Assembly (NCBI GenBank): GCA_037042185.1
Contig: JAXQJY010000027.1
Span: forward strand, 1,302,001 to 1,366,000
Length of the DNA: 64,000 bases
Reading direction: 5' to 3'
From: Sordariomycetes sp. S80-01Y
Taxonomy: Eukaryota; Ascomycota; Sordariomycetes
In this document: piece by piece, positions 11,484-53,658 of the stretch
Numbering within the stretch: position 1 is the stretch's first letter
Layout of the letters: the number at the start of each line of letters is the position of its first letter
Translations under genes and position numbers: made by a program
The notes under the pieces: generated by a model
The model's input: the letters and a program-made list of their open reading frames with translations, nothing else
The model's database searches: none
Told to the model about the DNA's origin: nothing

Positions 11484-11861
11484 ATGCTCCTCTGTATGGC
11501 TTCTGCTCCCTAACCTCCCATTCCCAGCTAATGTCCAGTCTGCCCCCACTGCGCAAACATCCTCACAGTGTCCCTCACCAACCAAGGGACCAACCGCCTC
11601 GAATGTCGCACGTGTCCCTTTGAACACCTCATCACCGACCCCGTCTTCTCAAGGAGGGCATACGAGCGCACGGAGAAGGATGACGTTTTCGGCGGACCGG
11701 GCGCGTGGGACAATGCACAGAAGGGACGGGTGCAGTGCCCCGCGGATGGGTGCGATGGCGACGAGGCGGCCTTCTTCCAGGTCCAGATTCGGAGTGCCGA
11801 TGAACCTATGACGAGTTTCTTCAAGTGCATGACCTGCGGGAACCGGTGGAGGGAGAATTGA
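11484..11861 (+). CDS. RPC11: RNA polymerase III subunit RPC11 (TFIIS-like zinc ribbon)
   Basis: RPC11 (yeast Rpc11/C11) gives Pol III its RNA-cleavage activity and helps termination and reinitiation on tRNA and 5S genes. Two exons: a 10 bp first exon 11484-11493 and 11539-11861, 110 residues, separated by a 45 bp intron. Splicing yields MLLF-CPHCAN; without the intron the N-terminal zinc ribbon would be broken. N-terminal ribbon: C-x2-C and C-x2-C (CPHC, CRTC). C-terminal TFIIS-type ribbon: CPADGC, CMTC, with the acidic hairpin in QIRSADEPMTSFFKC, whose Asp-Glu pair is catalytic in the family. DVFGGPGAWDNAQKGRVQCP is a typical linker. It converges on MED31 with a 267 bp gap. Confidence 0.95.
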
Positions 11862-12128
11862 TGGGCAGCGCGTGGTGGGCTACGAGGTAAAGCAGGGGTG
11901 AGGGTGAAGATGACGGGATTGATGTTGCCTTGTTTCGTTAGGATCGAGCAGGACGGCGGTGTTTGGCGTCGGCGTTGTCGGATTATTTGTCGAATTGATT
12001 ATTGAACCTGCCACGGCAGAGCCCTGCGCAGCGCTCCCCGTACTGTGACTCTGCAGCCTCATAGTCCTCATAAAGGCGCCCGTGATAGCCTCCTTGGTCG
12101 GAGTCGAGTGAAGTGCGCGGTCGGGTCT

Positions 12129-12500
12129 CTAACCCTCACGGTGCCACTCCACAGCCGCCCTCATCTCCTCCTCGTGAAGTCTGTTGACCACGTCCGGCCG
12201 GATGATGCTCTGCCGGAACGTCTCCTGCTGCAGCAGCTCCAGGTGGCGGAGCGTCGGGCCCGGGTAGTGCAGGTACTTGAGGTACGGCGGACGGGTCCAG
12301 TACTGCAGGTAGGAGAGGTAGGCAACGAAGGCGGGCTCGGCGAGGAACTTCTGGTCGGCAAGGTAGTTGAGGTAGAAGGGGTTGGCGAGGGACTGGACGA
12401 ACTCGAGCTCGAGCTCGAAGCGTGTGTAGCCGCCGTACTTGGGCTCGTTCGGGGAGGGAGTTGGCGGTTCGGGCGGTTGGGAGGGGACGTCGGCGTCCAT
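12129..12500 (-). CDS. MED31: Mediator complex subunit 31 (SOH1)
   Basis: Single exon, 123 residues. MED31 sits in the Mediator middle module and links it to the RNA polymerase II machinery. The hallmark helix bundle is complete: [19 protein letters not shown], then [39 protein letters not shown] and [14 protein letters not shown]. The N-terminal 25 residues are P-rich and likely disordered. Ends in TAG, one of several ordinary uses of TAG as terminator in this window. Transcribed divergently from the metallophosphoesterase gene. Confidence 0.95.
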
Positions 12501-13064
12501 TGTGTGCGTAAGGGCGGTGGTGGTAAAATTAGATCGTGACGATGTTGAAACAGACTCCTTGTGGTTTGCCTAAGGTATCCGGCAATGTTCTGTCTGTTCG
12601 CAAACTCGTGGTTGAGGGATGCGCAGGGATGGAGACGCGATATGGTGCGCCGCGGCGTCGGAGTGGTGGAGGTGTGAGGAGCTGAGCTAGTGCCTTCAAG
12701 TTACCTCAGGCTCACCTCACTCACCTTCAAGTGATCAGCAATTGCCACTCGACTGCTATAGTAGTGTGGTCTTGTCGTTTCCCCTTTTCCCTGGTTGTTA
12801 AGCCTTCTTTTACTGACAGAACTTTCAACATTTTGCTGGCTCTCCTTATTCTGGCTGCCTTCGCTAGCAGTCTATGGTTGCCTGTCTTTGTCCTCGCTTA
12901 AGTCAGCTTCTCCGAATCATCGACAGGCATACCGTGAACGGGCGTACCGCAAACACACAACCATTATCGATATCTCTGACTAAAGTTGCTACGAACACAG
13001 TCCTTCCAAGGTCCATTCCTCATTTCTGAGATTTCTCCTTCTCATCTTTCAAGACAAACGCAGC
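12501..13064. other. Divergent promoter between MED31 and metallophosphoesterase
   Basis: 564 bases without a supported gene. Contains a direct repeat of CTCACCT-like motifs (about 12710-12730) and CT-rich tracts near 12830-12900. No motif I would assign to a named factor. Confidence 0.45.
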
Positions 13065-19698: not shown

Positions 19699-20998
19699 GA
19701 TTTGGATCCGACATGCCAACGTCTGGAGAATGGCGGACTGGGTTCCGGGGAGATTTGATGTATCTGACCGAAATCCAATCAAAGAATCGTGATGCTGCTC
19801 GCTGCATGCAGGCCGCGGTGAACTACCTGGACTCCGCTCTGCAGGAGTAATGAGACGCTGTTCTTGGAGACCGAGATGCCCAACTCGTCTCACCTTTGAC
19901 GAATGCAGGCGAGATGTGGTCGCTCCATGCACGTGCAGGTAGCCTTGTGGATTAAACTCACCCGCGGGTGGGACGGTGAGACATTCATGTCGGGTGATTG
20001 GCGAAGCCTCACCGATCCCGTCTGCGTCCTGCAAACACCCAACGTAGCCGATTTGAGCGAGGCGACCGAGCAAACATGGCCTGGGATCCGGCTGGCGACC
20101 TTGGCTACCTCGCCAACTCATGGAGTATCCTCGCTGATCAGCCCTCAAGGATTCAATTGAAGGGTGCCGGCAGAGTTTCATCTGCTGACCGCCTCACACG
20201 CGGACCTCGCCAGCTCGCGTTGTCACGCGCCTCACCTTGTGGTGGACCACCCTGTCTCACAATCTTTCCGTCTGCTCTTCTCTCCCTTGAACGCGCTCGG
20301 TGCTGACGGCTGCACTGCATCCCTCGTACAAAGTACTGCACTCTTACAGGGCTACCTGGTGAATGACCCCCACAACTCACTCTGCAAAGTCCCTGTGCCT
20401 GCTCTTCACTCTGGCCTGAAACGAAACGCCAGCTGAGATCCGATGGCGCGGCTCCGGCGACGGGCTGGGCCTTGAAGGGCCGTCGCGTGCTGCTACTGCT
20501 GCCAAACCCAGTCCGGTCACACACGTTTGCGGGATGCCCATCTGTCTTATGCAGGAGCTGCAGCCACAAGCACCAGCTATTGGCTTCCTGACCGGGTGAT
20601 TGACAGGGAGAAGCTGCAGGTGGCCGCTGCTCGTCGACGGTCGGTGTAATGGTGGTCATGACATCCCAGCAGCTTGGCCGCATCCCGCAAACACGGCCCT
20701 TTCTTCGCGATGGCCTCATGCAAGACCATGATCAATCTGTAATGAATGGCTCCGGCTCCTGCTCCTGCTCCTAGCCCCAGATCTAGACCAGGCCGTAAAC
20801 GGACATACACACCTCCTGGACTTCCGCTCTCAGCATGACGCTGCCTGCCGTCTTCGTCACACCGCCCCAGCCCTTAAGAGGGCCCGGAACACAATTGTTG
20901 GCACAGCAGATGGTTGCTCTCGGCAATCTGATCTTTTCCCATTCATTACGGCCTCGCACTCTGATCTTCTGGAGTGCCCATTGTGCCGGGTCTCCAAT
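19699..20998. other. Intergenic 1.3 kb, no firm gene
   Basis: A 220-codon minus-strand frame (19522-20181) partly antisense to the hydrolase includes GEFNPQGYLHVHG, which looks protein-like, but I cannot attach it to a family and it has no splice context; it may be a relic. A run of CTCCTG repeats near 20756-20775 is the only simple repeat. Confidence 0.4.
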
Positions 20999-21967
20999 AT
21001 GGCTGAGGGTGCGCCACACATGACGATTCGTGAACAGGACTCATCGCCGCAAATCATCAGCTCGCAAACATCCGCATCTGGCAGCCTTGGACAGCTTCCT
21101 CCCGAACTGAGAAGCAAGGTCTGGCAGTGCGCCGTCGAACCTCGGGTGATCCTTCTGGGCGACCTCATCAAAACACCAAAATCATATCCCCTTCCCTTGG
21201 CATCTGCACTGAATGCCGAATCTCGTCATGAAACTCGGAAAGGATACCAGAGGGCCGGTCTCGGGTCGTATGTCAACTTCTCGAAGGATATAGTCGTCTG
21301 CGATGACCATCTCGTGGATCAGACGTCCCCGAATCCGGAGCTGGAGAGGGTAGCATTGCGTGCTGAGCACGTCGTGTTCTGGGACTGCCTCGAGGATGAT
21401 GGGAGGGCTAAACTGCCCGATGGCTACCACGACTATCTCAATACGTGCTACCATCATGAGCACTTTGGCCGCATCGACCTCGAGAGATTTTGGTTCCCTA
21501 GGGTGAAGGAGTTCTGGACGGTGAAGATCGGCCATATCGACACCAGCTGGATGGTGGACAAGCATGTGGAAAGGAGAGCCCCTCGGGATATTCAATCCCG
21601 CCAGTCTGCCAGGGAATTCCGCTACTGGTGGCAAGAGGGCATCGTGGAGATGTGCGTGCTGGACCTGGACGACTCGATTGCCCGGTTGATTCTTCGAGAT
21701 GGTCGGTGCGAGAGAGAGTATTGTCACGACATCAACGCAGGACGGGGCCGACTGATCTCCAAAGTAAGCATCATGGATGGGAGGTACCGGCCATCTCTGG
21801 ATGAGACCAAGTGGATACGGATACGCTCTCCCACAGACGACTACAGCGCCTTGAGCCCCACGGCGAAGATAAATCTCATGCGGTGGGAGGTGGTTGAGAG
21901 GGTCTTTACGTTTCTGCTGAGGTGGGATTGGCCGAGCAAAGCACGCAAGAGGCGCGCCTCGGGCTGA
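20999..21967 (+). CDS. 2EXR-domain protein 1
   Basis: Single exon, 322 residues from the ATG at 20999. The N-terminal block LGQLPPELRSKVWQCAVEPRVI is the F-box-like helix of the 2EXR family, common and expanded in filamentous ascomycetes and of unknown function. The middle (RAEHVVFWDCLED, ERFWFPRVKEFWTVKIG) gives the alternating strands and helices typical of the family, and the C-terminus is basic (KARKRRASG). Some 2EXR-like proteins are thought to bind Skp1 through the F-box-like helix; this is inference. A relative lies 650 bp downstream. Confidence 0.75.
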   Translation: MAEGAPHMTIREQDSSPQIISSQTSASGSLGQLPPELRSKVWQCAVEPRVILLGDLIKTPKSYPLPLASALNAESRHETRKGYQRAGLGSYVNFSKDIVVCDDHLVDQTSPNPELERVALRAEHVVFWDCLEDDGRAKLPDGYHDYLNTCYHHEHFGRIDLERFWFPRVKEFWTVKIGHIDTSWMVDKHVERRAPRDIQSRQSAREFRYWWQEGIVEMCVLDLDDSIARLILRDGRCEREYCHDINAGRGRLISKVSIMDGRYRPSLDETKWIRIRSPTDDYSALSPTAKINLMRWEVVERVFTFLLRWDWPSKARKRRASG

Positions 21968-22612
21968 GAAAGCTGTGGTGCTGCCATGGGGTCCATGCCC
22001 AGAAGCTTCGTTCAAGGCTCACGACCGACGTTCCTCGGAGGCTCACTCAGGGATGGAGACAGGGGAGAACACAGCTCACGGACCGAGTTGACTTCCATCT
22101 TCTAGGTCCGGACTCTTTGACCAGATGTGGTGCTCAAAATGCAAGGAGTCTTGGCGAGAACACCCTCCCGGACGAGACCTAGTCCTTCACCACAGGATGC
22201 CGGGTACCGCTGGAACGGGCACCAGAGGATTCGGCAGTCTATGTGGTTTCTGCCCAAGAATGACGACCTTGTGAACGAAGACAAAAGGACCTCGGCGACG
22301 ACATAAACGCAGAACAAAGGCAAGATACAACGGCACAGCCAAATCCTGCCAGCCACTCGACTATTGTCCTCCCGTTGCTCGGTATGCGTTGCAAACGCCT
22401 GAATCGTCCCGGTAGCGTTTGAGACCGATGCCCCCTGAGACGAAGTTACTCTACGGGTAGTAGGTGAACTCGAGGGAAGGCAGAGGTGCAGGGTCCCAGC
22501 GTGACTCTACATTTAAAGAGGAATTCTGTTCTTACCTCAAAACTTCCCTTCTCCTCAACACTCTGCAACTCAACTACCACTCAAAGCTCGCGCTGAGGAT
22601 CTGGAATCCGGC
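21968..22612. other. Spacer between the two 2EXR-type genes
   Basis: 645 bases; short TA- and CT-rich tracts just before 22613 suit a promoter. No gene seen. Confidence 0.45.
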
Positions 22613-23740
22613 ATGGCGGACGCATGGGGCTTTCCCATATTTTCCAGAGAGATCCAGTTGATGATCTGGGAGTTTGCGGCCGAACCCAGCATTGTGAGCA
22701 CCGAGCCGGCGAGAGATGGGCTCCCAAGCCGTGGATCGACGGGTGCTAGCGCTCTCTCTGCTATCCATTACCTCTCTCGCGAACTTCAAGGTGCCCCGAT
22801 CGCCCCGGCTCTGATGAGGAATCTGTTTGGCGAAATTATCCATCTAGACCTCGCAGTTGACACTGTCAAGGTTTTTGGCTCTTTTGTTCCCGAAGTGATT
22901 CCGTCAGCCGTTTGGCCTGGCCCTGGGGGACTTTACTATCAGAGTCCCATCAGGAAGCTACTCTGTGCAAGCCGCTCCGCTCGTGTTGACTTCAATTTGC
23001 TCGTGGAGGCTGAGGCCAACCGCATCCCTCTAGACCTAGAACGCTGGCCAGTCTTGGAGGAGATCACATTTGCATACACACGTGCTGATGTCGCCTTCTT
23101 CCTCCGAGACTATATTGTTCAGGGTCCTACCATGAACGGTGTGCCAGCACAGGGCTGTCAGTGGCATAGTCCTCTCGCTCTTGAATCGTTCACAGCTAAG
23201 GGCGGAACTACTGTCTACGACCGAACCCATGCGGGCGCCAAGTACTATCGTAGTAAAGGAATTGACGTTGACGCCGGCATCAGATGGCGAGTAGACAAAA
23301 GCCAAGACCCTCAAAAAACGATCTGGGACCGTCGAAATGCAACCAAGAAAGCGCTGAAAGCTGGTAGCAGGAGTCCTCGACATGGCAGTCAACGTGCTCA
23401 CTCTGGACCTCGCGGCCCACAGGTTGGGGGCTATCACCCACATCAAGACGTATGGGCCAACCGTCCTAACGTGGGCCTTCACGGGATGAGTTACGACGCG
23501 ACTTCTTGCGGAGGCATCTGGGCGGGCTTTCGCATCTGGCCACACGAAGGCGGCCGTGTGGGGTTCTCGCCCCTCGGATGGGACGATGTCAAAGACACAG
23601 CGTACGCCTGCCAAGACCACGACAAGATCAAGGGGCACTTCGCCGAGATGATTGTCAAGATCTTTATCGTGCAGCCTGGGCGGGCTGTGCCGACGGGAGG
23701 GCCTCATTGCTCCTGGGAGACGCTTGTCCCGCTCCCGTGA
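22613..23740 (+). CDS. 2EXR-domain-like protein 2
   Basis: Single exon, 375 residues. Starts MADAWGFPIFSREIQLMIWEFAAEP, the same helix motif as the preceding gene (REIQLMIWEFA versus PELRSKVWQCA), followed by a strand/helix region with WPVLEEITFAYTRADV. Residues 245-300 are basic and low in hydrophobics (AGSRSPRHGSQRAHSGPRGPQ), a likely linker. The C-terminal 70 residues (SCGGIWAGFRIWPHEGGR...FAEMIVKIFIV) form a separate block. The two genes are in tandem but clearly diverged, so an old duplication or independent recruitment is possible. Function unknown. Confidence 0.7.
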   Translation: MADAWGFPIFSREIQLMIWEFAAEPSIVSTEPARDGLPSRGSTGASALSAIHYLSRELQGAPIAPALMRNLFGEIIHLDLAVDTVKVFGSFVPEVIPSAVWPGPGGLYYQSPIRKLLCASRSARVDFNLLVEAEANRIPLDLERWPVLEEITFAYTRADVAFFLRDYIVQGPTMNGVPAQGCQWHSPLALESFTAKGGTTVYDRTHAGAKYYRSKGIDVDAGIRWRVDKSQDPQKTIWDRRNATKKALKAGSRSPRHGSQRAHSGPRGPQVGGYHPHQDVWANRPNVGLHGMSYDATSCGGIWAGFRIWPHEGGRVGFSPLGWDDVKDTAYACQDHDKIKGHFAEMIVKIFIVQPGRAVPTGGPHCSWETLVPLP

Positions 23741-41274: not shown

Positions 41275-44200
41275 TTATGACCCTTTCCCGAACTTGCTCT
41301 TCCGCTTCGCAATCACCTTGACCTTGCCTGTATGTGGGTTTGTGATCGTTCTGACATTGTCCCCCACGAACTCTTGGCTGCGCCTAACGTTGGCTCTTCC
41401 CTCGACTGCCTTCTCCTCAGCCCTGAGTTTGATGGATTCAACCTTCTCTCCATACTGAACGGTGTCTCTCTCCCACGGCTCATTGAAACCGTGAATATTG
41501 TTGTTCTGGCTCGTTGGTCGACCTCTGTCATCAAGCTTCGGCTTAAACCCAAACCCGTGGACGTGGCCATCCTCGGTGTCGTATCTCACCCAATGGCCAG
41601 AATTCTTCATTCGAACACCTGGAAAATCGGCCTGAGTGGTCTCGACGAGGCTTGCCATTCCTCCAACGGTAATGAGGTGGCTGGCTGAGCTCGAATTTTG
41701 AGGCGAGGCAACGGCTGTGGTGCTGGTGCTGACGCTGGTCCAGTCTTCGTCAATGGACTCTTTCGCAGAGCTCACTAGATTAGCCCCTTTTTCAAACTCG
41801 GCGGCATCAAGATCCGCTAGCTCCTTCTGTTCCCTTTTCTGCCTCTTTTTCTCCGCGCCGGTCTTAAGCTTCTTCCTTTTCTTCTTCTTCTTGGGCGCCT
41901 CAGGTGTCGATCTTTTGTCAGACTCAATGGCCTCATCACTATCCACCCCAGTTTTCGCCTTCGGTTCAACCGTCTCAACCAAGACAATCTCTGTTCGCTC
42001 AGCTGTCCCTCCATCTATGGTTGGGACTGCCCCCTGCTTCTTCGCGTTGCTTCGTGCTTGTGAAATCAGATCTGAGTTGTTAATCTTTCCTTCTACAGTA
42101 ACCAGCCTCGCTGTCTTCCCGAGAAACTCATTGGTTAGAGGATCTGCATCTTCCTTGGCATCAATGAGCCCCTTGCCCTTAGAGAGGCCGAGGGTAATAC
42201 TACTGGCTGATGAATCATGCCCGGGATCGCTCAAGCTGCCGCTGTTAGAAAGATCCTGGAGCTTCTCGAACTGACTCCTGTGGGGTTCGTGTTGCCTAGT
42301 CGTGATGTGCTGGCCCCTTGCCTTCGACTGGGTCGAATGTCTCGAGGACTTTTGGGATGATGCTGCCGGTAATCCTTTGTTCGAATGCGCGCCCTGGGCA
42401 TCCGAAGGTGTCTGAGCGTGCCTTTTGGCGCGCTCGGCAACCTCATCCATCTCTGGAGTAGCCCTGGCCACCGATCGGACTGTATCGTTGTCGTATTCGG
42501 ATTTAGGATGAGTTCTCGCTGACACAAGTGATTTGGTTGTCGATCCCTTTTCTTTACTTTCCCCAGGAGTATGCGGTTGGCTTTGTGTGCTTCCGATGTG
42601 AAATTGGATTGAAGCTTGTTCTGAAGCTTCTTCCAGGTCTTTTTCAGAAGCCTTCGCTGTAGAGTGAGTAGTCGCTGGGCCCTTGGGCCCCTTTATAACC
42701 GCGCTTTTGACTCCAGAACACGCCATTCCATTTTCTTTCCCTTTCACAGTCTTCAAAAGTTGAGTTGATGACACTCGTTGTGTCCCTGACCGTGGCACTT
42801 CAGCTTGCTGGGTGTTTGATTTCGAACCGTCATCCAAGGGTGGTTGAACACCCTTGCCAGTCCTCGGTTGTTGGGGTTTGATAGACTTATTACTTTGATT
42901 CGCAGCATTGGAAGAATGATTGATTCGGTCATCCTGAGGAGGGGGCTTTGCCTTTGCATGCTGCTCAGCGCTGGTTGTGTTGACCACTCCGGACAGGGTT
43001 CCGCTCTTCGCCCCCTTCGAGAGTGATGCTTCTCTGCCTCCCTGAGTGGAACTCGCGTCCATGACGACAGACGGAGGTTGTGGCAGCCGAGTCTTTCGTG
43101 TAGGACCTAGCAATGCAGGAGATCCGCAGCCCACAGGCCTTTTCGCTTTCCTAGCAGTCAAGGCCAGCGGCATCGCAATCTGTCGCGAAAACTTCCGCCT
43201 AGACTCGATATCTACTCCAGATAGTTGGGCAGGCTTTTCTGTACTGCTGGAAGCGGTTTCTGACCACGAAGCGGCACCAGATATTGTACTGGGCAACTGA
43301 TGAGGGTGAGGGTTGATCGGGGTCGGGACGCTGGGTACGGTCTTGGACTTGACTCTACCGTTAAGTACCAGCTGGTCTGGATAGACGACAGACTTTGTTT
43401 TCCTTCCGCCCTTCTTTTTCAGCATGTTGTCGGGTTCGTCAGAGGTACTTGCAACCCACTGCGGATCTTCGAGAGACTTGGCCCTGGCTGCTTCAGCATC
43501 TAGAGCCTGGCCTTGCACCTCTTTTCCATCTTTTGTGCTACTGAGCTGTCTATCATGCGGCACAGATGGAGGAAGAACAACCCGAGGTATCGGTACCTGC
43601 TTTTCACTCTCTTTTTGACACCGATCAACCTGTTCGATGGGCTTCGGGGCTCTTGAAGCTGACATCGGGCTTGGAATTCCTCTGTCGCGGTGCTCTGGTA
43701 CCTGTAATCCTGAGATAACTGTGTCCATTTCGCCCCACGCATCGCAAGGAAGCCATGATCGCGATACATTCTTTACTGGTGAATGACTATTGCTGCGTGG
43801 CGTGATCCGCCTCTCAAAATCTGATCGGCCTCTCTCCTTGTTTGAATATGTTCTCCGGCTAGATAGTCCGGCTTCGACATATTCAACATCGGTGTTGGGC
43901 AATGTGGCACGTGGGATAGGTCTCCTGGCCGTAGCTGATTCCTGAGAGCTTTCGACGACGTCGTCTGTAGGGTTAGTCGGTACAGTTTGACAAACTAGAT
44001 CGCTAGGGATAGCCTTTGTGTGTGTCACACTATCTCGGGGGGCACTTTGACCCTGGGGGAGCCCAGTCGAAGACGTCATGGCTTCCATTATAGGGCCTTG
44101 ATTGACCGCAGTCGCTCCTGTTGCCGTGAAAATCTCTTGTTGTGAGTGTGTGAACGGTTTCAGACCCGCGTTGTAGCCAAAATTGTTTGCATGGGCCAAC

Positions 44201-46306
44201 TCGCCTCTCAAAGGGTTCGTAGTCGGATGAACCACATGCTGGAACGTGTCCTGTTGCGGATAATTACCCGTAGGTAGAGGCTGGTTCCTATGAAGCTCTT
44301 CTGGATATTGTGGTGCATAGAAGGGTTGAGCAGTCGTCGGATGATAAAAGAATTGTCGACTCAGTGGCGCTGGAGGCAGATGATGAGGAAGTGCCCCATT
44401 CCTATGTTGCGGTGCTTGTTGCCCTGCAACGTTGGTGGGCGCCAACACTATGTCAGAGAACTGTTCGGACCATCTTGACAAAGACATAGGGTTTATTGCC
44501 ACTCTTATCTTGCGTCCGACCAAGGTTCTCGAGGACGAAAGCGTCAACTAAACTGCGTTCTCCTTTTGGAACCTGCAGTGATGTTAGTTCTAGACAACGT
44601 TGTAGGATATCCGGTCGGCCAACCTAACAATGACTTTCCAAGTGGCTGCCTGTCTGGGCATTGGCGATACCTCAGTCACATATCCAAACTGTGCCATGCA
44701 TGACCAGATATAGCTCTGCAGTGCAGGTGAGTACGGCTCATGCAAGGAAACCACGACACTTCGGTTGAGCAGCTGACACTGCCTGCACGCACACTCTGTG
44801 TACTTTTCTTTGCAACGAGTAGGCTTTTCTTGGTTTCTGCACATTGTTTTCAGGGGGTTTCCGATCTTGATTGGGTTATCGGCCTGTTTGAGATTACTTC
44901 TAGCGTCCTGGCTGGTGTAGTGAACATTGGTGGAGTGTGAAGCATCCGGCTCCGTAGTGTGAGTCTCGGCCATACCACTGGATCTCAGGGACCGATGAGT
45001 AGCAACTTCGGAGACGTGGGTAGCTTGCTCCCGATGTGCGTGCGGCTTCTCCTTTTCACCTCGGCTATCATGGGAAGCTTGAGACACGGTTTCACAGTCA
45101 GCAGAGGCAGCTGCTTCAAGACCCTCTTGATCTTTGCTGACAACACTGCTGTTTTTCGAAGCGCCAGTTGCCTTAGCCACAGTCTTTACCAGTTGCTCAA
45201 AGTTGTCGTCTTTTTTGAGTGTCTTGTCTGCTCCTCCGGTAGATTTGGCGTGCTTCTGAGCGGCTTCTCGTCTGGTTTGTGACTTTTGCGTACTCTCCAA
45301 CCAGCTTACCCAGAAACTGCTGTGCACAACGCTGCCCTTGACCACAGGAAGGCTGTTCGAGTGAGCTGGCACTTCGCTCCCAGCTTTTAAAGGGTAATCA
45401 GTACTTTGCACTATGTTGTGCCACCACCAAAACTCGTGTGGCCTGAGGGAAGGGGGCGTGTACAAATCCACTATAAGAACTTGTTAGATCAATGCGGTCC
45501 GCTGCAATCAAGATCTGACAGAAGGACCTACCTGGCCATGGTCCGTTCCCAGATTTGTGGTAAGCATGATACCATTGCCCTGGTGTCAGGAAAATTCGGT
45601 GCTGAAGGAGGTGACGAGAGAACAGGAGCGAAATGTCTAACTCCTCTAGGAGTTCTTGCGCGCTCAGGTACTGGCAGAGGTTCCCAAGCGTGTGACGATC
45701 CTCTCTGGTGCAAAGATTAACGATAGGTCCCGACTCATCTAGTCCCTTCCAATTCAACATCTTCCTTAAATTTGATGAATCTGCCATCCAACAAAACATG
45801 AAGTGAATTAGCTGGATCCAGTTATTTTTGTGGCAGCACCCCTCACGGAGGTGGATGTTCTCTTGCTCGAGCTTTAGCTGAACCTCTTGGAGGTTACGGG
45901 AGCCGCAGCGATAAACATCCAAAGGATCGTATACGTTGAAGATATCGTCCAACTTCCGAGACGGCTCAACGTCTAACATGATGGCCCAGTATTTCTGGCG
46001 CAAATGGTTGCATACTGACCGTACCTGTCCGCTCGACCAAGCAAGAACGCTCCTCCGCGGAATCCGGAGTCTCTGACGACCTCCTTGGGTATGAAAGAGG
46101 GCACGAGAAGATCTTCCGTTAGGAAGTCGAAAAGCTGTCATGTATGCGCCTTGCCCATGTCGATTTCCAGCCCATTCGTCAGAAGCATCGTCTAAGATTG
46201 GGAGACCATTGTCGTCGAAGCGAAGGAAGACTTGATGCTGATCTTCTTGTGCGGAATTCGCCAAGTCTCCAATATCGTCCGGCACTGGTGATAAAGTGCT
46301 AGACAT
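41275..46306 (-). CDS. Very long RRM-containing protein, in-frame TAG inside the RRM
   Basis: Exons 46306-45532, 45470-44624 and 44572-41275 (introns 61 and 51 bp; another intron, 46385-46314, lies in the leader). The N-terminal 258 residues have no known family. Exon 2 carries a Cys-rich bit (C-R-Q-C near TECACRQCQL) and then an RRM: RSVVVSLHEP, WSCMAQFGYVTEV, ATWKVIVRF (RNP1-like strand), QKENAV, a TAG at 44548-44550, then LTLSSSRTLVGRKIRVAINP, a textbook RRM ending. So the fold is continuous only if TAG is read. The C-terminal 1000 residues are disordered (S, K, T, P) with a Lys-rich KKKKKRKKLK stretch and a conserved-looking end FPGVRMKNSGHW...HGFNEPWERDT. If TAG stops, the product is 548 residues with a cut RRM; if read, 1639. 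Next ATG (44487) could start a separate downstream frame. Confidence 0.6.
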
Positions 46307-47140
46307 TGCGGTTCTGGAGACGATGTCAGTAACTGGAGTTTGGTACTCCCAGAGAAGAGCTATCTCCACCGTTAAGGATACTCACCAATGCGAGCAACGT
46401 CGCTAGTTTTCGAAGCGGTTGGTACAGCTGTAGGGCTCAGGTGTTGAAGACAGCAGAGAGAGCGCGAGAAGGCAGACTTGAATGTCGTCGAGGCCCAAGG
46501 GCTTCAGCGCTAGTGTAGGCGCGTCGCGAGCTTGAGCGGACTGTGGTGTGGTCGCAGTGCAAGATAGAAGAAGCGTGAAGCAAAGGAAAGGGCATACCGA
46601 GGAGGGAAATTCAGGGGCTGCTGTAAGGAGTGACTTGAAGTTGACGTGAGGATGAGACCCCGGTTCTAAATAGACGCCAGCGCCGCATAAGAACAACTGC
46701 TGGCAGCTGCGCCAGTGCAGCGTAGGTGAACAAGCAGCTATGACAGCTGCTAGCGTGGATCACAATTTGATTCAGGCGCCAATCAACGATATTAATACAG
46801 TTCAATAATTGGAACAGATGATGTTGGAGCCATGTGTGGGTATGAAGTTCGCGGTGTCGTTTTGGAGGACGTTTGCGACTGATTGAGTTGGCAAGAAGCA
46901 GACTTATAACTTCGGGAAGCTGCAGAAGGCATTGAAGGCGGCTAATCACATATGGTCCTTCCGTGGAAGAGCTCTTTGTCCCTATGCATATCTTTTCTGG
47001 TCACAAAAGCTTGTTCACGTAGTCGACAAGATGATTATTACCTTAGCCAAGGTACTGTAGCCAGGTTTGCATTCTTGAGTAGTGAATATGGACGCGATCA
47101 AGCCGAATCTCGTAAATCCTAAATAATCCAAAGTCGCTGT
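46307..47140. other. Leader of RRM gene and 3' flank of FMP46
   Basis: Contains a minus-strand leader intron (46314-46385, donor GTGAGT, branch CTGAC, acceptor CCAG) in front of the RRM gene's ATG. No other gene recognised. Confidence 0.55.
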
Positions 47141-48432: not shown

Positions 48433-50253
48433 ATGCTTCAACCTTCTCCGTCTGACGGGCAGGTCCCTGAGAGCGCCCCGCCTCCTGAGTCGGTGACGAC
48501 TTCAGCAACATCGCATGACACCTGTCCATACCAAAACGATCCAGCTTCGACTGAGGTTTCATCATCAGATGCTGACCTGACTCAACCTGTCCTGGAATTA
48601 CAAGAATCCCCTCCCCACGTCGAAACTAATGGGGCCGACAGTACTGTCGGTCACGAATTCGCGTTTCTGTCAGATGAGCAAGTCATATCATTGCCGTCAG
48701 GTCCTGTTCTTGAAAATCTCTAGCAGAAGACCCTTGGCCGGATCTACCGTTCTTCAGACAGCCTTATTATCGATGATCTGCACAATATCAATATTGTCTG
48801 CAAGGCCTTTGATCTTGATACTGGAGCTGTGGATGGACAACCCCCAGGCTATTGGCGACCTGCTGGAAAAGAACTCACCAAAGAACATTTTGCTCAGAGA
48901 TATCAGTATCTTTTCAGCGAGCTTGACAGTTTCATTGGACCGCAGTCGGGGTGCCCAAGATACGATAGTAACAGTCTTCGGTCCAAATTTTGCGCCTATC
49001 TCTTGAAACCAGTGCCGGGGCGCGAATCTCAAACAGCGCTGATGTTCCGGGCCACACAATGGAGGCCGCTCATGTAAGATCTTAGAAACGATGCTAGTGG
49101 GTATGTCGTTGACTTTGAATAGAAACAGGTCGCGCTTCCTCATTGACGAGGTCTTCGACTCCCCGGCCTAGCAGGCGGAGTGTGTCTTAGTGTGGTGCAA
49201 GGAGAACAGGAGTCCCGATTTCGACATCCCTCACTGCGCAGCATTCTTGAGTCAAGGGGAGCTTCTCGTGGAGGGCAGACTCACAAATGCCGAGATCAGC
49301 ACAGCACTGTGGGTGTGCACGAATCAATACGTGGCACATAAAGCAAAGTTTCGCTTCTATCCGGTAGGTTCAACGCCACTTATGTACCTATTGTTCCGTT
49401 TTAATGAGGGTGCTAAGTTGACTTTTAGTCACTTGTGTTCTCCTTCTCAGAACACTCGGTTCGACTTATCCAAGGCGTCCTCGATTCGTTCACGGAAACC
49501 TACGAGATCAGGTTCTCGAGCATCGTGTCTTTCAGCTTAGGGTTTATTGGAGTTCCTCCAAACTCAGAGCGATTTTGCACTGTACTACGCTGGTTCTTGG
49601 CGCGGCCTGCTGGAGACCTAGGCATAGGCGCTACCATAAACTATCCCAAGCATGAATGGAAAGCAGAACACCCATCCATCAGCTCGGTCATACCACAAAT
49701 CTTTCAGCAGGTTGAAGAAACGGTGGAGATGCAGGACTTAAGCGACAGCAAAGCGGAGGCTAGTTTGCTCATTCAGAACTCGTCCCCAGAGATGAAACAA
49801 ACCCAAGACGCAGAGAGGTCCCAGAGCGCCGAACATTTTCCCGAGGAGCAGCCCCAAGAGTTCGGCCAGACCGATCCCACTGAGCAATCCCAGAATTTGG
49901 AATAGTGGTTGCAAATTCAAGAGCAATCTGAAAATCAGGATCAGCCTGAGCAGCCGCCAAGTCTCGAGCCATCTCAGGAATTGCAATAGTGGTTGCAAAC
50001 TTTGCAGCAATACTTCAGTGAGGAACAGTATTGTCAGATGCCACCACCCGACCCAGCTCAGTCAAGGGAATGTTCCTCAAGTCCAACGCATTCTACGCAT
50101 TCGTTTTGGGTCGAAGATACAGAGAAGGATACATTCATGGGATATCAACCGCAAGTTCAAGACCAAGGTTATCCCCAGACTTTGGAAGATGCAGAGTGGG
50201 ATGAATTCTTGAAGACTTCGATAAAAGCAACTGGTCTTCAGTTTGCAAAGTAG
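48433..50253 (+). pseudogene. Unrecognised gene with four in-frame TAG codons
   Basis: From ATG 48433 one reading frame, spliced at 49074-49128 (or -49122) and 49364-49428, stays open to a final TAG at 50251-50253, except for TAG at 48721, 49169, 49903 and 49987. Both introns have good donors (GTAAGA, GTAGGT) and CTAAG/TTGAC branches, so most of the structure looks maintained. Between the TAGs the protein is well formed: GYWRPAGKELTKEHFAQRY, RYDSNSLRSKFCAYLLKPV, CAAFLSQGELLVEGRLTNAE and VRLIQGVLDSFTETYEIRF. The first 96 residues are S/T/P-rich; the end is Gln-rich with an 84-base repeat. A 42-45 bp intron could remove the first TAG, but with a poor donor. No family recognised. Dead gene or UAG read-through; undecided. 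Confidence 0.5.
49888..50010 (+). repeat. Direct repeat, 84 bp period, each copy with TAG
   Basis: Two copies, 49888-49926 and 49972-50010, encode S-Q-x-L-x-TAG-W-L-Q-x3-Q. Both carry TAG TGG TTG CAA at the same place. Either the TAG pre-dates the duplication or both arose independently. Confidence 0.7.
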
Positions 50254-51088: not shown

Positions 51089-52358
51089 ATGTCAGCTCTC
51101 GCACCCAACATGCAGCGTGCCCGCGCTCCCCTTCGCAAAGCGCTCCCCTCCACCATCCGCACCTTCGCCACCATCCCCTCTGAGCCAACAGCAGATAAGA
51201 AGCAGCGCAAGTCCTACTTCACCGATCGCACAGTCGCATCCTTCGATGAATTCGTCTCTTCCAAGGGCCCCAAACCCTTGACGCCCACAGAAGCCTACAC
51301 CCTCCGGACTGCCCAGGTCGGGCCTGAGGGCAAGAAGCGAACAATCACCCGTCTTCCCGAGTGGCTCAAGACGCCCATTCCCGCCGGAAACGAGAACTAC
51401 AAGCAGATCAAGCGCGACTTGCGAGGATTGGGACTGCACACCGTCTGCGAGGAGGCACGGTGTCCAAACATCTCCGAGTGCTGGGGTGGAAGTGACAAGA
51501 ATGCTGCCACCGCAACCATCATGCTCATGGGCGATACCTGCACACGCGGTTGTCGCTTCTGCAGTGTAAAGACGAGTCGGACGCCGCCGCCGTTGGATCC
51601 CCATGAACCGGAACATACAGCCGAGGCGCTTGCACGTTGGGGGCTAGGATACGTCGTGCTCACCACCGTAGACCGCGACGATTTGGTAGACAGTGGAGCG
51701 CACCACCTGGCGGAGACGATAAGAAAGATCAAACAGAAGAAACCCTCGCTTCTAGTTGAAGCGTTGACGGGAGATTTCCAGGGTGACCTGGACAGTGCCG
51801 CGTTGGTGGCCGAGAGCGGGTTGGATGTCTTTGCGCACAACATTGAGACAGTGGAGGATCTGACGCCATACGTACGAGACCGACGAGCAACCTTCAGGCA
51901 GAGCTTGTCCATCTTGAAGCATGCGAAGGATGTCAAGGGGCAGGATGGCATCATCACGAAAACTAGCTTGATGCTGGGCCTGGGGGAGCAGGAGAAGGAG
52001 GTCATGGCTGCGATGGAGGGTAAGTCGGTGATGCTGAACCTCAGTGAGCGTCGCTAACGAGGTCGTAGAACTAAGAAAAGCAAACGTCGACGTCGTTACC
52101 TTCGGCCAGTACATGCGCCCGACGAAGCGCCACCTGAAGGTCGAGAAATACGTCACGCCTGACGAATTTGAGATGTGGAAGCAGAGGGCCATGGATATGG
52201 GCTTCCTATACTGCGCCAGTGGGCCCTTGGTTCGCTCGTCGTACAAGGCCGGTGAGGCCTTCATTGAGAATGTCCTACGCAAGCGTCAGGGCCAGAAGGG
52301 TCCTTCGGGCACCCAAATAGACCAGTCTGCTGCAACGCAGACCGCCTCGACGGTCTAA
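51089..52358 (+). CDS. LIP5: Lipoyl synthase (mitochondrial, radical SAM)
   Basis: Inserts two sulfur atoms into octanoyl chains on lipoate-dependent enzymes (pyruvate and oxoglutarate dehydrogenase E2, GcvH) in the matrix. Two exons, 51089-52019 and 52069-52358, 406 residues. An N-terminal presequence ([20 protein letters not shown]) precedes the auxiliary-cluster cysteines C120-x4-C125-x5-C131 and the radical-SAM cysteines C151-x3-C155-x2-C158 ([10 protein letters not shown]). The serine ligand motif [12 protein letters not shown] is present near the C-terminus. The intron joins [13 protein letters not shown]. The enzyme destroys its own auxiliary cluster as sulfur donor, so it depends on Fe-S supply. 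Confidence 0.97.
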
Positions 52359-52573
52359 ATAGAATTCTTTCTCGGATTCTGTTGTATAGTAGACTACATG
52401 AACCTGGTTTGGATTGCATGGACGGCGTTGACGGATACCCCTGGATGGAAAGGGGGCTTAACTTTATATTCATTACAAACGGCCTTCAACATTGGCCAAT
52501 ACTGATCACACTTTTTGCGCCAGAATTTGCCCGAAATAGACCACCTGCTCAATCTCCTGATACGGCGGTCGTA

Positions 52574-53658
52574 CTAACTTGAATCCCATATTCCCCTCAG
52601 CGCTGTGAGGGCGATAAACAACGCCTCCTCCGTCCTAATGGTCCGGGAACCCTGGTTCGGCAGCACGTTGACCCAGTGGTCAAACAACTCCCTCGTCTTC
52701 TGCCCCTGAACACCCATGCCACCCAACTGCTCGTCGTTCATCGATGCATACTCCAGGCCCCGCGGTCCGCCGAATACAATCAGCAGATGCTTGAAAGGCA
52801 CCTCCTTCCCGGGCGGAAAGGTCTTCGATATCGGCGAGCCACGCTCAGAGGTACCGATGCTCACATCGTAGCCGTCCTCATGTGGACTCTCGGTGAAAAC
52901 AGCTGACAGCGACGAAGCTTGCCTCACTTGATAGCCCCAGTAGTAGCCCCCCTCGGTCCGTGGCGCATCAGGCGCGATACACTCAGGGTAGTCATTCTCG
53001 TTGTCGGGGAATTTCAACGTCACCCTCGTCTTCGGCGGGACGTCAGCTTCCACTTCGACCGGCTCACCCAGCCCACATTCCACCAGTGTGCCCTTGCCCG
53101 TGCTTGTCTTGCCAGCAACAGCGATGCCTTCCCTATAGGAGATCCATTCTTTCTGGTTAGGGTGGTGCGGCATGTCCAGACTCGGAAGTACAGCAGTCAT
53201 GCGCAGATTGGGGTGCAGCGGGAAGAGCATCTTGCGCATGAATGGCGGTGCTTCGACGTAGGATAGAATATGCGAGAGGAAGTGACAAGGGTCGGTGTCG
53301 CCGGTGTAGGAGTTTGGGTCGACATTTCGGGGGCGTTCGTTCAAGGGGGAGTCGTCGAAGATGACGATTTCGTCAATCGAGAAGACGGCGAGGGCGCGCG
53401 CAATGCGACCAGGCATTGTCAAGCGCTGATCAGCTGTGGCGAGGTTCGAAAGCACACTGCTGGGGACCGCGACGGACAAAGTCCAGTCTCGACCGCCATC
53501 CTGAGGGTTGAAGATAGCGGATGGTTTCCAGGAAGTGGTGTCCTGTCGCCCACCACCATTGTGGGCGGTTTTTCGTTTCTGCAAATTCTTCAGTTTACAT
53601 TAAAGCTCTAGCGACGACTTGAGGATCTAACCTTGTTGTTCCTCTCGTGGTAAGACAT
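52574..53658 (-). CDS. SPOUT RNA methyltransferase (C9orf114/DUF171 type)
   Basis: Two exons, 53658-53632 (27 bp) and 53578-52574, 343 residues; the 53 bp intron joins MSYHERNNK-KRKTAHNGG. Family blocks: TLSVAVPSSVLSNL, TAVFSIDEIVIFDDSP-like strand and helix (ARALAVFSIDEIVIFDD), HFLSHILSYVEAPPFMRK, and knot loops LIVFGGPRGLEY and NVLPNQGSRTIRTEEALFIALTAL. The last is the SAM-binding trefoil-knot end. Human and yeast relatives (SPOUT1, YMR310C/YGR283C) are nuclear or ribosome-linked RNA methyltransferases; target RNA unknown. A basic N-terminus agrees with RNA binding or nucleolar location. Confidence 0.88.

Follow-up and report, generated by a model that had tools for sequence, protein, structure and literature searches.

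We found that a gene at 48433-50253 (+) of the window, by which we mean the whole 64,000-nucleotide stretch analysed, is open from its ATG at 48433 to a terminal TAG at 50251-50253 except for four in-frame stop codons, every one of them TAG. Our leading, still tentative explanation, to which we give a little under an even chance, is A-to-I mRNA editing, with each of the four internal UAGs a site of premature-stop correction. What the sequence establishes is the gene structure, the TAG-only interruption, the normal use of TAG elsewhere, the absence of RIP (C to T at CpA), the poor splice-outs available for TAG1, TAG3 and TAG4, and a duplicated core around TAG3 and TAG4. UAG-to-UGG editing stands just ahead of a young pseudogene, a serious rival that we consider nearly equal to it in probability. 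The gene is made up as follows:

48433-49073 (+), exon 1, with the ATG at 48433; contains TAG1
48721-48723 (+), TAG1, in frame and followed by CAG; base at +3 is A; placement in a hairpin loop weak or absent
49074-49128 (+), intron 1, 55 nt, GTAAGA..AACAG
49129-49363 (+), exon 2; contains TAG2
49169-49171 (+), TAG2, in frame, next codon CAG; all fold lengths tried predict its A in a hairpin loop
49364-49428 (+), intron 2, 65 nt, GTAGGT..TTTAG
49429-50253 (+), exon 3; contains TAG3, TAG4 and the terminal TAG; later part Gln/Glu-rich
49901-49915 (+), first 15-nt core, AATAGTGGTTGCAAA; contains TAG3 (49903-49905)
49985-49999 (+), second, identical 15-nt core, AATAGTGGTTGCAAA, 84 nt downstream; contains TAG4 (49987-49989)
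50251-50253 (+), terminal TAG; base at +3 is C; its A outside any confident hairpin loop

The spliced frame comprises 567 codons with the terminal stop counted, and TAG occupies residues 97, 228, 451 and 479. TAA, TGA and frameshifts are all lacking from it, which bears out the first-pass annotation that only TAG interrupts the gene (at 48721, 49169, 49903 and 49987, before a TAG end) and that frameshifts are absent. The two well-formed introns proposed there were likewise recovered: neither length is divisible by 3 and the frame is regained by both jointly, and on a home-made consensus scale they score 7.7 (intron 1) and 7.6 (intron 2), compared with 8.7 for a LIP5 intron and 7.2 for an Hsp70-like one; when 150 positions were drawn at random and the best covering intron that keeps the frame was scored at each, the 95th percentile was 7.3. 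We also scored codon usage with 16 other long frames of the window as the training set, penalising stops in competing frames, and the frame of this gene came top among six in 7/7 inter-stop segments. Codon bias itself is weak, most segments lying near 0 bits per codon.

Searches of Pfam (with the whole protein, then two pieces) and NCBIfam returned no match to the encoded protein, and its sole row among solved structures, at E 3.2, is no match. Pattern matching flagged 5 stretches in viral and 13 in genome contigs, none of which was confirmed as a homologue; these contig searches say little about orphan status, because both collections are non-fungal. Structure prediction on two exon pieces without an alignment was unusable (mean pLDDT 43.3 and 43.9). 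Judging by its other genes the window is probably fungal: they match lipoyl synthase, Methyltrn_RNA_3, Rsm22, sirohaem synthase, ferric reductase, 2EXR, a fungal transcription factor domain, MED31, GPI2, DUF1687, HSP70 and a CNH domain. At 20732-23740 (+) two long frames lie side by side, the first matching 2EXR and the second similar by eye. On the other strand, at 41275-46381 (-), long frames of 1090, 297 and 327 aa adjoin; a Pfam scan of 41278-44547 and 45401-46300 (-) gave no match, and together the frames are perhaps one large lineage-specific gene.

A change of genetic code was ruled out as the cause of the TAGs. Among the ends of 15 window reading frames checked, TAG accounts for 5, TGA for 7 and TAA for 3, some of these gene ends being uncertain. 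The clearest TAG-terminated gene lies outside those 15 frames: in MED31 (12132-12500, -), the residue preceding TAG aligns with residue 124, the final one, of the solved chain 6xp5_Z (76/117 identical), which we take to be from the Sordariomycete Chaetomium thermophilum. Since TAG terminates MED31 and other genes in the window, the code is not reassigned.

We further estimated how often decay would leave only TAG. Across the whole window TAG makes up 26% of stop trinucleotides (1054/4007), which is the wrong null because the gene is Gln-rich. Among single-base nonsense changes from the gene's own 562 sense codons the TAG share is 43-45% (56% under a RIP-like model), and the chance of 4/4 TAG is 0.036-0.042 (RIP-like, 0.096), or 0.08-0.09 (RIP-like, 0.17) with TAG3 and TAG4 counted once. 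The earlier argument from decay survives in part: the gene does look unlike ordinary decay, but the share of the argument that relied on stop type is weak (p ~0.04 for a Gln-rich gene). In simulations of neutral decay, three or four stops took ~66-93 substitutions (~90 for four). We then computed the joint chance of all-TAG stops, no frameshift and intact sites at indel/substitution ratios of 0, 0.02, 0.05 and 0.1, which are assumed values not derived from this fungus; it was ~0.02, 0.006-0.008, 0.002-0.004 and 0.0005-0.001 for four stops, and 0.05-0.06, 0.024-0.025, 0.006-0.011 and 0.002-0.005 for three. Neutral decay loses likelihood from the lack of frameshifts and the intact sites (p 0.0005-0.06, depending on the assumed indel rate). 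This evidence is moderate rather than strong, because the gene was picked by eye from 64 kb.

A survey of the window that ignored introns listed 31 chains with a single stop type (at least one stop each); the interrupted gene at 48433-50253 is absent from its list. The two chains inspected, both TAG-only, were rejected as candidates. The chain at 11652-12695 (-), with four TAGs, is MED31 (12132-12500) plus flanking DNA, and its first TAG after the ATG is a normal stop; the chain at 52289-53599 (-) is the Methyltrn_RNA_3 gene plus its 3' flank. Given that single-type chains occur by chance around real genes, a TAG-only chain alone is no proof.

In the young-pseudogene reading, fixed or strain-specific, function would have been lost recently and the nonsense changes would all be TAG by chance. 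We rate it only slightly below editing. Gln/Glu codons would favour TAG, and at 43-45% of single-step nonsense changes an all-TAG outcome has p 0.03-0.09; the lack of a family match, as dispensable lineage-specific genes may show, the weak codon bias and the mixed hairpin evidence for editing all fit as well. However, the ~66-93 substitutions needed would often yield frameshifts or broken sites, with the indel rate again assumed. A neutral pseudogene would be marked by a mixture of stop types, by frameshifts and by lost sites; all of these are missing from the interrupted gene, although a young pseudogene could escape them by chance.

The duplicated sequence around TAG3 and TAG4 adds a further consideration. 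Both stops lie within the same 15-nt core, spaced 84 nt (28 codons) apart, and 15 identical bases arose in 0.5% of 200 codon shuffles of the Gln-rich region. At the 84-nt offset, the 42-nt flanks are identical at 21/42 and 22/42 positions (P 0.013 and 0.007; other in-frame pairs, mean 12.1/42), with the signal in the nearest 21 bases at P 0.001 on the left and 0.14 on the right. The 84-nt repeat was not reported by Tandem Repeats Finder. The best reading of this pattern is an old in-frame duplication whose flanks would have diverged while the TAG-centred core was retained. From an identical core between diverged flanks it seems that the TAG predates the duplication, and the TAG of the core is probably older than the divergence of the flanks. 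A core identical in both copies, though the flanks are ~50% diverged, speaks against the young pseudogene, unless TAG3 and TAG4 are one change copied by intragenic exchange; the identical core could equally have come from the recent copying of a short stretch.

The second copy has a peculiarity of its own. TTGCAA reads the same on both strands, so the coded repeat TTGCAA-TAGTGG-TTGCAA at 49981-49998 (+) doubles as a perfect hairpin whose loop holds the TAG. As RNA, this TAG4 hairpin (UUGCAA-UAGUGG-UUGCAA) forms in short folds and is absent in the 61- and 63-nt folds.

Fungal A-to-I editing is described as favouring hairpin loops, a U at -1 and a purine at both +1 and +3 (PMC11156358, PMC4817773, PMC11169179), with 62.4% of edited sites in F. 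graminearum placed in such loops (PMC4817773). It is reported to convert UAG to UGG (Trp), and UAA to UGA, which is still a stop (PMC11156358, PMC4817773). In the interrupted gene, U at -1 and a purine at +1 around the edited A are given by TAG itself. The purine at +3 is present in 4/4 internal TAGs, against a background of 490/1054 (0.465); the chance of this is 0.047, or 0.10 with three independent sites, and it counts against the young pseudogene. The next codon is CAG after TAG1 and TAG2 and TGG after TAG3 and TAG4.

Predicted RNA folds gave a less uniform picture. With 30 nt on each side, the published folding length, the minimum-energy fold put TAG2 and TAG3 in hairpin loops (2/4; background 32%), and ensemble loop probabilities were 1.00 for TAG2, 0.26 for TAG3 and 0.03 for both TAG1 and TAG4. 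When the codon was folded with +/-15 nt, the loop probability was 1.00 for TAG2, TAG3 and TAG4, 0.57 for TAG1 and 0.28 for the terminal TAG (background mean 0.56; 10.6% of 1054 TAGs at the maximum). With +/-9 nt it was 0.69, 1.0, 0.94 and 1.0 for TAG1-TAG4 and 0.68 for the terminal TAG (background 0.635). Best local hairpin energies ranked at 94%, 5%, 14% and 29% for TAG1-TAG4 and at 58% for the terminal TAG, so that 94% of background UAGs have a hairpin at least as stable as that of TAG1; pooling the four internal ranks gave P 0.12. The predicted structures are therefore only suggestive of editing, because more than one fold length was used, TAG3 is not independent of TAG4, and TAG1 fails.

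Splicing offers another, improbable account, in which the gene has more introns than the two modelled, or alternative ones, and these remove the TAGs. Intron 1 can be extended over TAG2 from the same donor with the frame kept, and the form 49074-49299 (226 nt) scores 7.2, followed by 49074-49278 (6.5) and 49074-49209 (136 nt; 6.0), compared with 7.7 for the 55-nt form. An edited stop in FgBUD14 of F. graminearum is also reported to lie within an alternatively spliced intron (PMC11156358). These long forms nevertheless cost 27-57 codons of exon 2. Two higher-scoring frame-keeping introns over TAG2 (7.5 and 7.3) have their donors within intron 1, downstream of an in-frame TAA, and use of the close acceptors at 49171 or 49174 breaks the frame. 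For the other sites the best frame-keeping covering introns reach only 4.7 (TAG1), 3.8 (TAG3) and 3.8 (TAG4), below the random median of 5.35 (n=150), and automated annotation is described as inventing introns around edited stops (PMC4817773, PMC11169179). Splicing could thus remove TAG2 alone, and hardly TAG1, TAG3 or TAG4.

Read-through, or a suppressor tRNA placing Gln or another residue at UAG, is very improbable. The first-pass annotation had proposed read-through and noted CAG after two TAGs, and that codon is indeed present at TAG1 and TAG2, loosely resembling leaky viral contexts. The tobacco-mosaic-type leaky signal, however, is UAG-CAR-YYA; the codons beyond UAG-CAG here are AAG and GCG rather than YYA, and TAG3 and TAG4 lack CAG. 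Four leaky stops in series would give a negligible yield (for example, 5% each would leave ~6 in a million), and other frames in the window end in TAG, including MED31 at the exact end of its solved homologue; read-through is not supported. Least credible of all, and rejected as the source of the TAGs, is RIP acting on CAG and TGG: a RIP-like mutation pattern would raise the TAG share of nonsense changes to 56%, but TAA would be expected nearly as often (43%), CpA is abundant, tblastn found no second copy within the window, and the TA/AT (0.57) and (CA+TG)/(AC+GT) (1.35) indices lie away from the RIP thresholds and inside, or close to, the values spanned by the window's 4-kb pieces (0.49-0.81 and 1.07-1.33).

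Under the editing explanation the gene would be a protein-coding one of a filamentous ascomycete, and we infer that Trp would be placed at all four sites during the sexual stage by the host's own editing machinery. The Tad2-Tad3 tRNA deaminase pair with an mRNA-editing cofactor would act in sexual tissue and deaminate the A of each UAG to inosine, with U preceding it and a local hairpin loop at most sites. UIG would be decoded as UGG (Trp), giving a single 566-residue protein, and an unedited transcript would yield only a 96-residue fragment. If this is true, four edits per transcript would be needed, which would amount to a near all-or-none expression gate in sexual tissue. Were each site edited independently at 90%, roughly two in three transcripts would be full-length; at ~15%, the reported average, almost none would be. 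Given this steep dependence of yield on per-site editing, the gene would report sensitively on how active editing is. Annotation pipelines overlook or break up genes that are defective in the genome and repaired in RNA, and a four-site gene would be an extreme case among them.

The taxonomic range of mRNA editing gives these results wider relevance. A 2024 review lists it solely for Sordariomycetes and Pyronema, and states that it was not identified in fruiting bodies of Aspergillus nidulans or Botrytis cinerea (PMC11156358). The Ame1-Tad3 interaction is held to have originated in Sordariomycetes, editing in Pyronema is suggested to be of independent origin, and the Ame1 residue pair MV, as opposed to KN, is tied to editing (PMC11087585); reports from basidiomycetes have been listed (PMC7306014) and are ascribed to error by PMC11156358. 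From the gene content our guess for the host would be Dothideomycetes, a class in which our literature search found no report of mRNA editing; the MED31 identity to 6xp5_Z does not settle the class. We regard as rather unlikely the stronger combination of a host outside the known mRNA-editing classes with a gene in which each of four stops can be edited on its own, an internal duplication having passed on two of these stops together with the UAG hairpin core. If the host did lie outside those classes, stop-correcting editing would be wider in Pezizomycotina than reported; a host outside Sordariomycetes and Pezizomycetes would bear on which classes edit mRNA, a question that the same review describes as open (PMC11156358).

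Reported precedents for edited premature stops are PUK1, which has two UAGs, a further 70 genes of F. graminearum, and CHE1 (PMC11156358, PMC4817773, PMC11169179). Like PUK1 and the other F. graminearum genes, the present gene has a pseudogene-like ORF interrupted by UAG only, and shares with them the U at -1 and the purines at +1 and +3; its frame, introns and terminal stop are intact, and some sites fall in predicted hairpin loops. It differs from PUK1, in which the two UAGs are adjacent, in that its four UAGs are scattered along the gene and TAG1 is without a loop, and from all of these genes in being known here from DNA alone. Fusarium CHE1 has a single site, a downstream C2H2 domain and conservation shown across Fusarium species. 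The conserved UAG of CHE1 is edited in hyphae, and the two genes are alike in carrying a premature UAG inside a full-length frame and in having the loop judged from few flanking codons.
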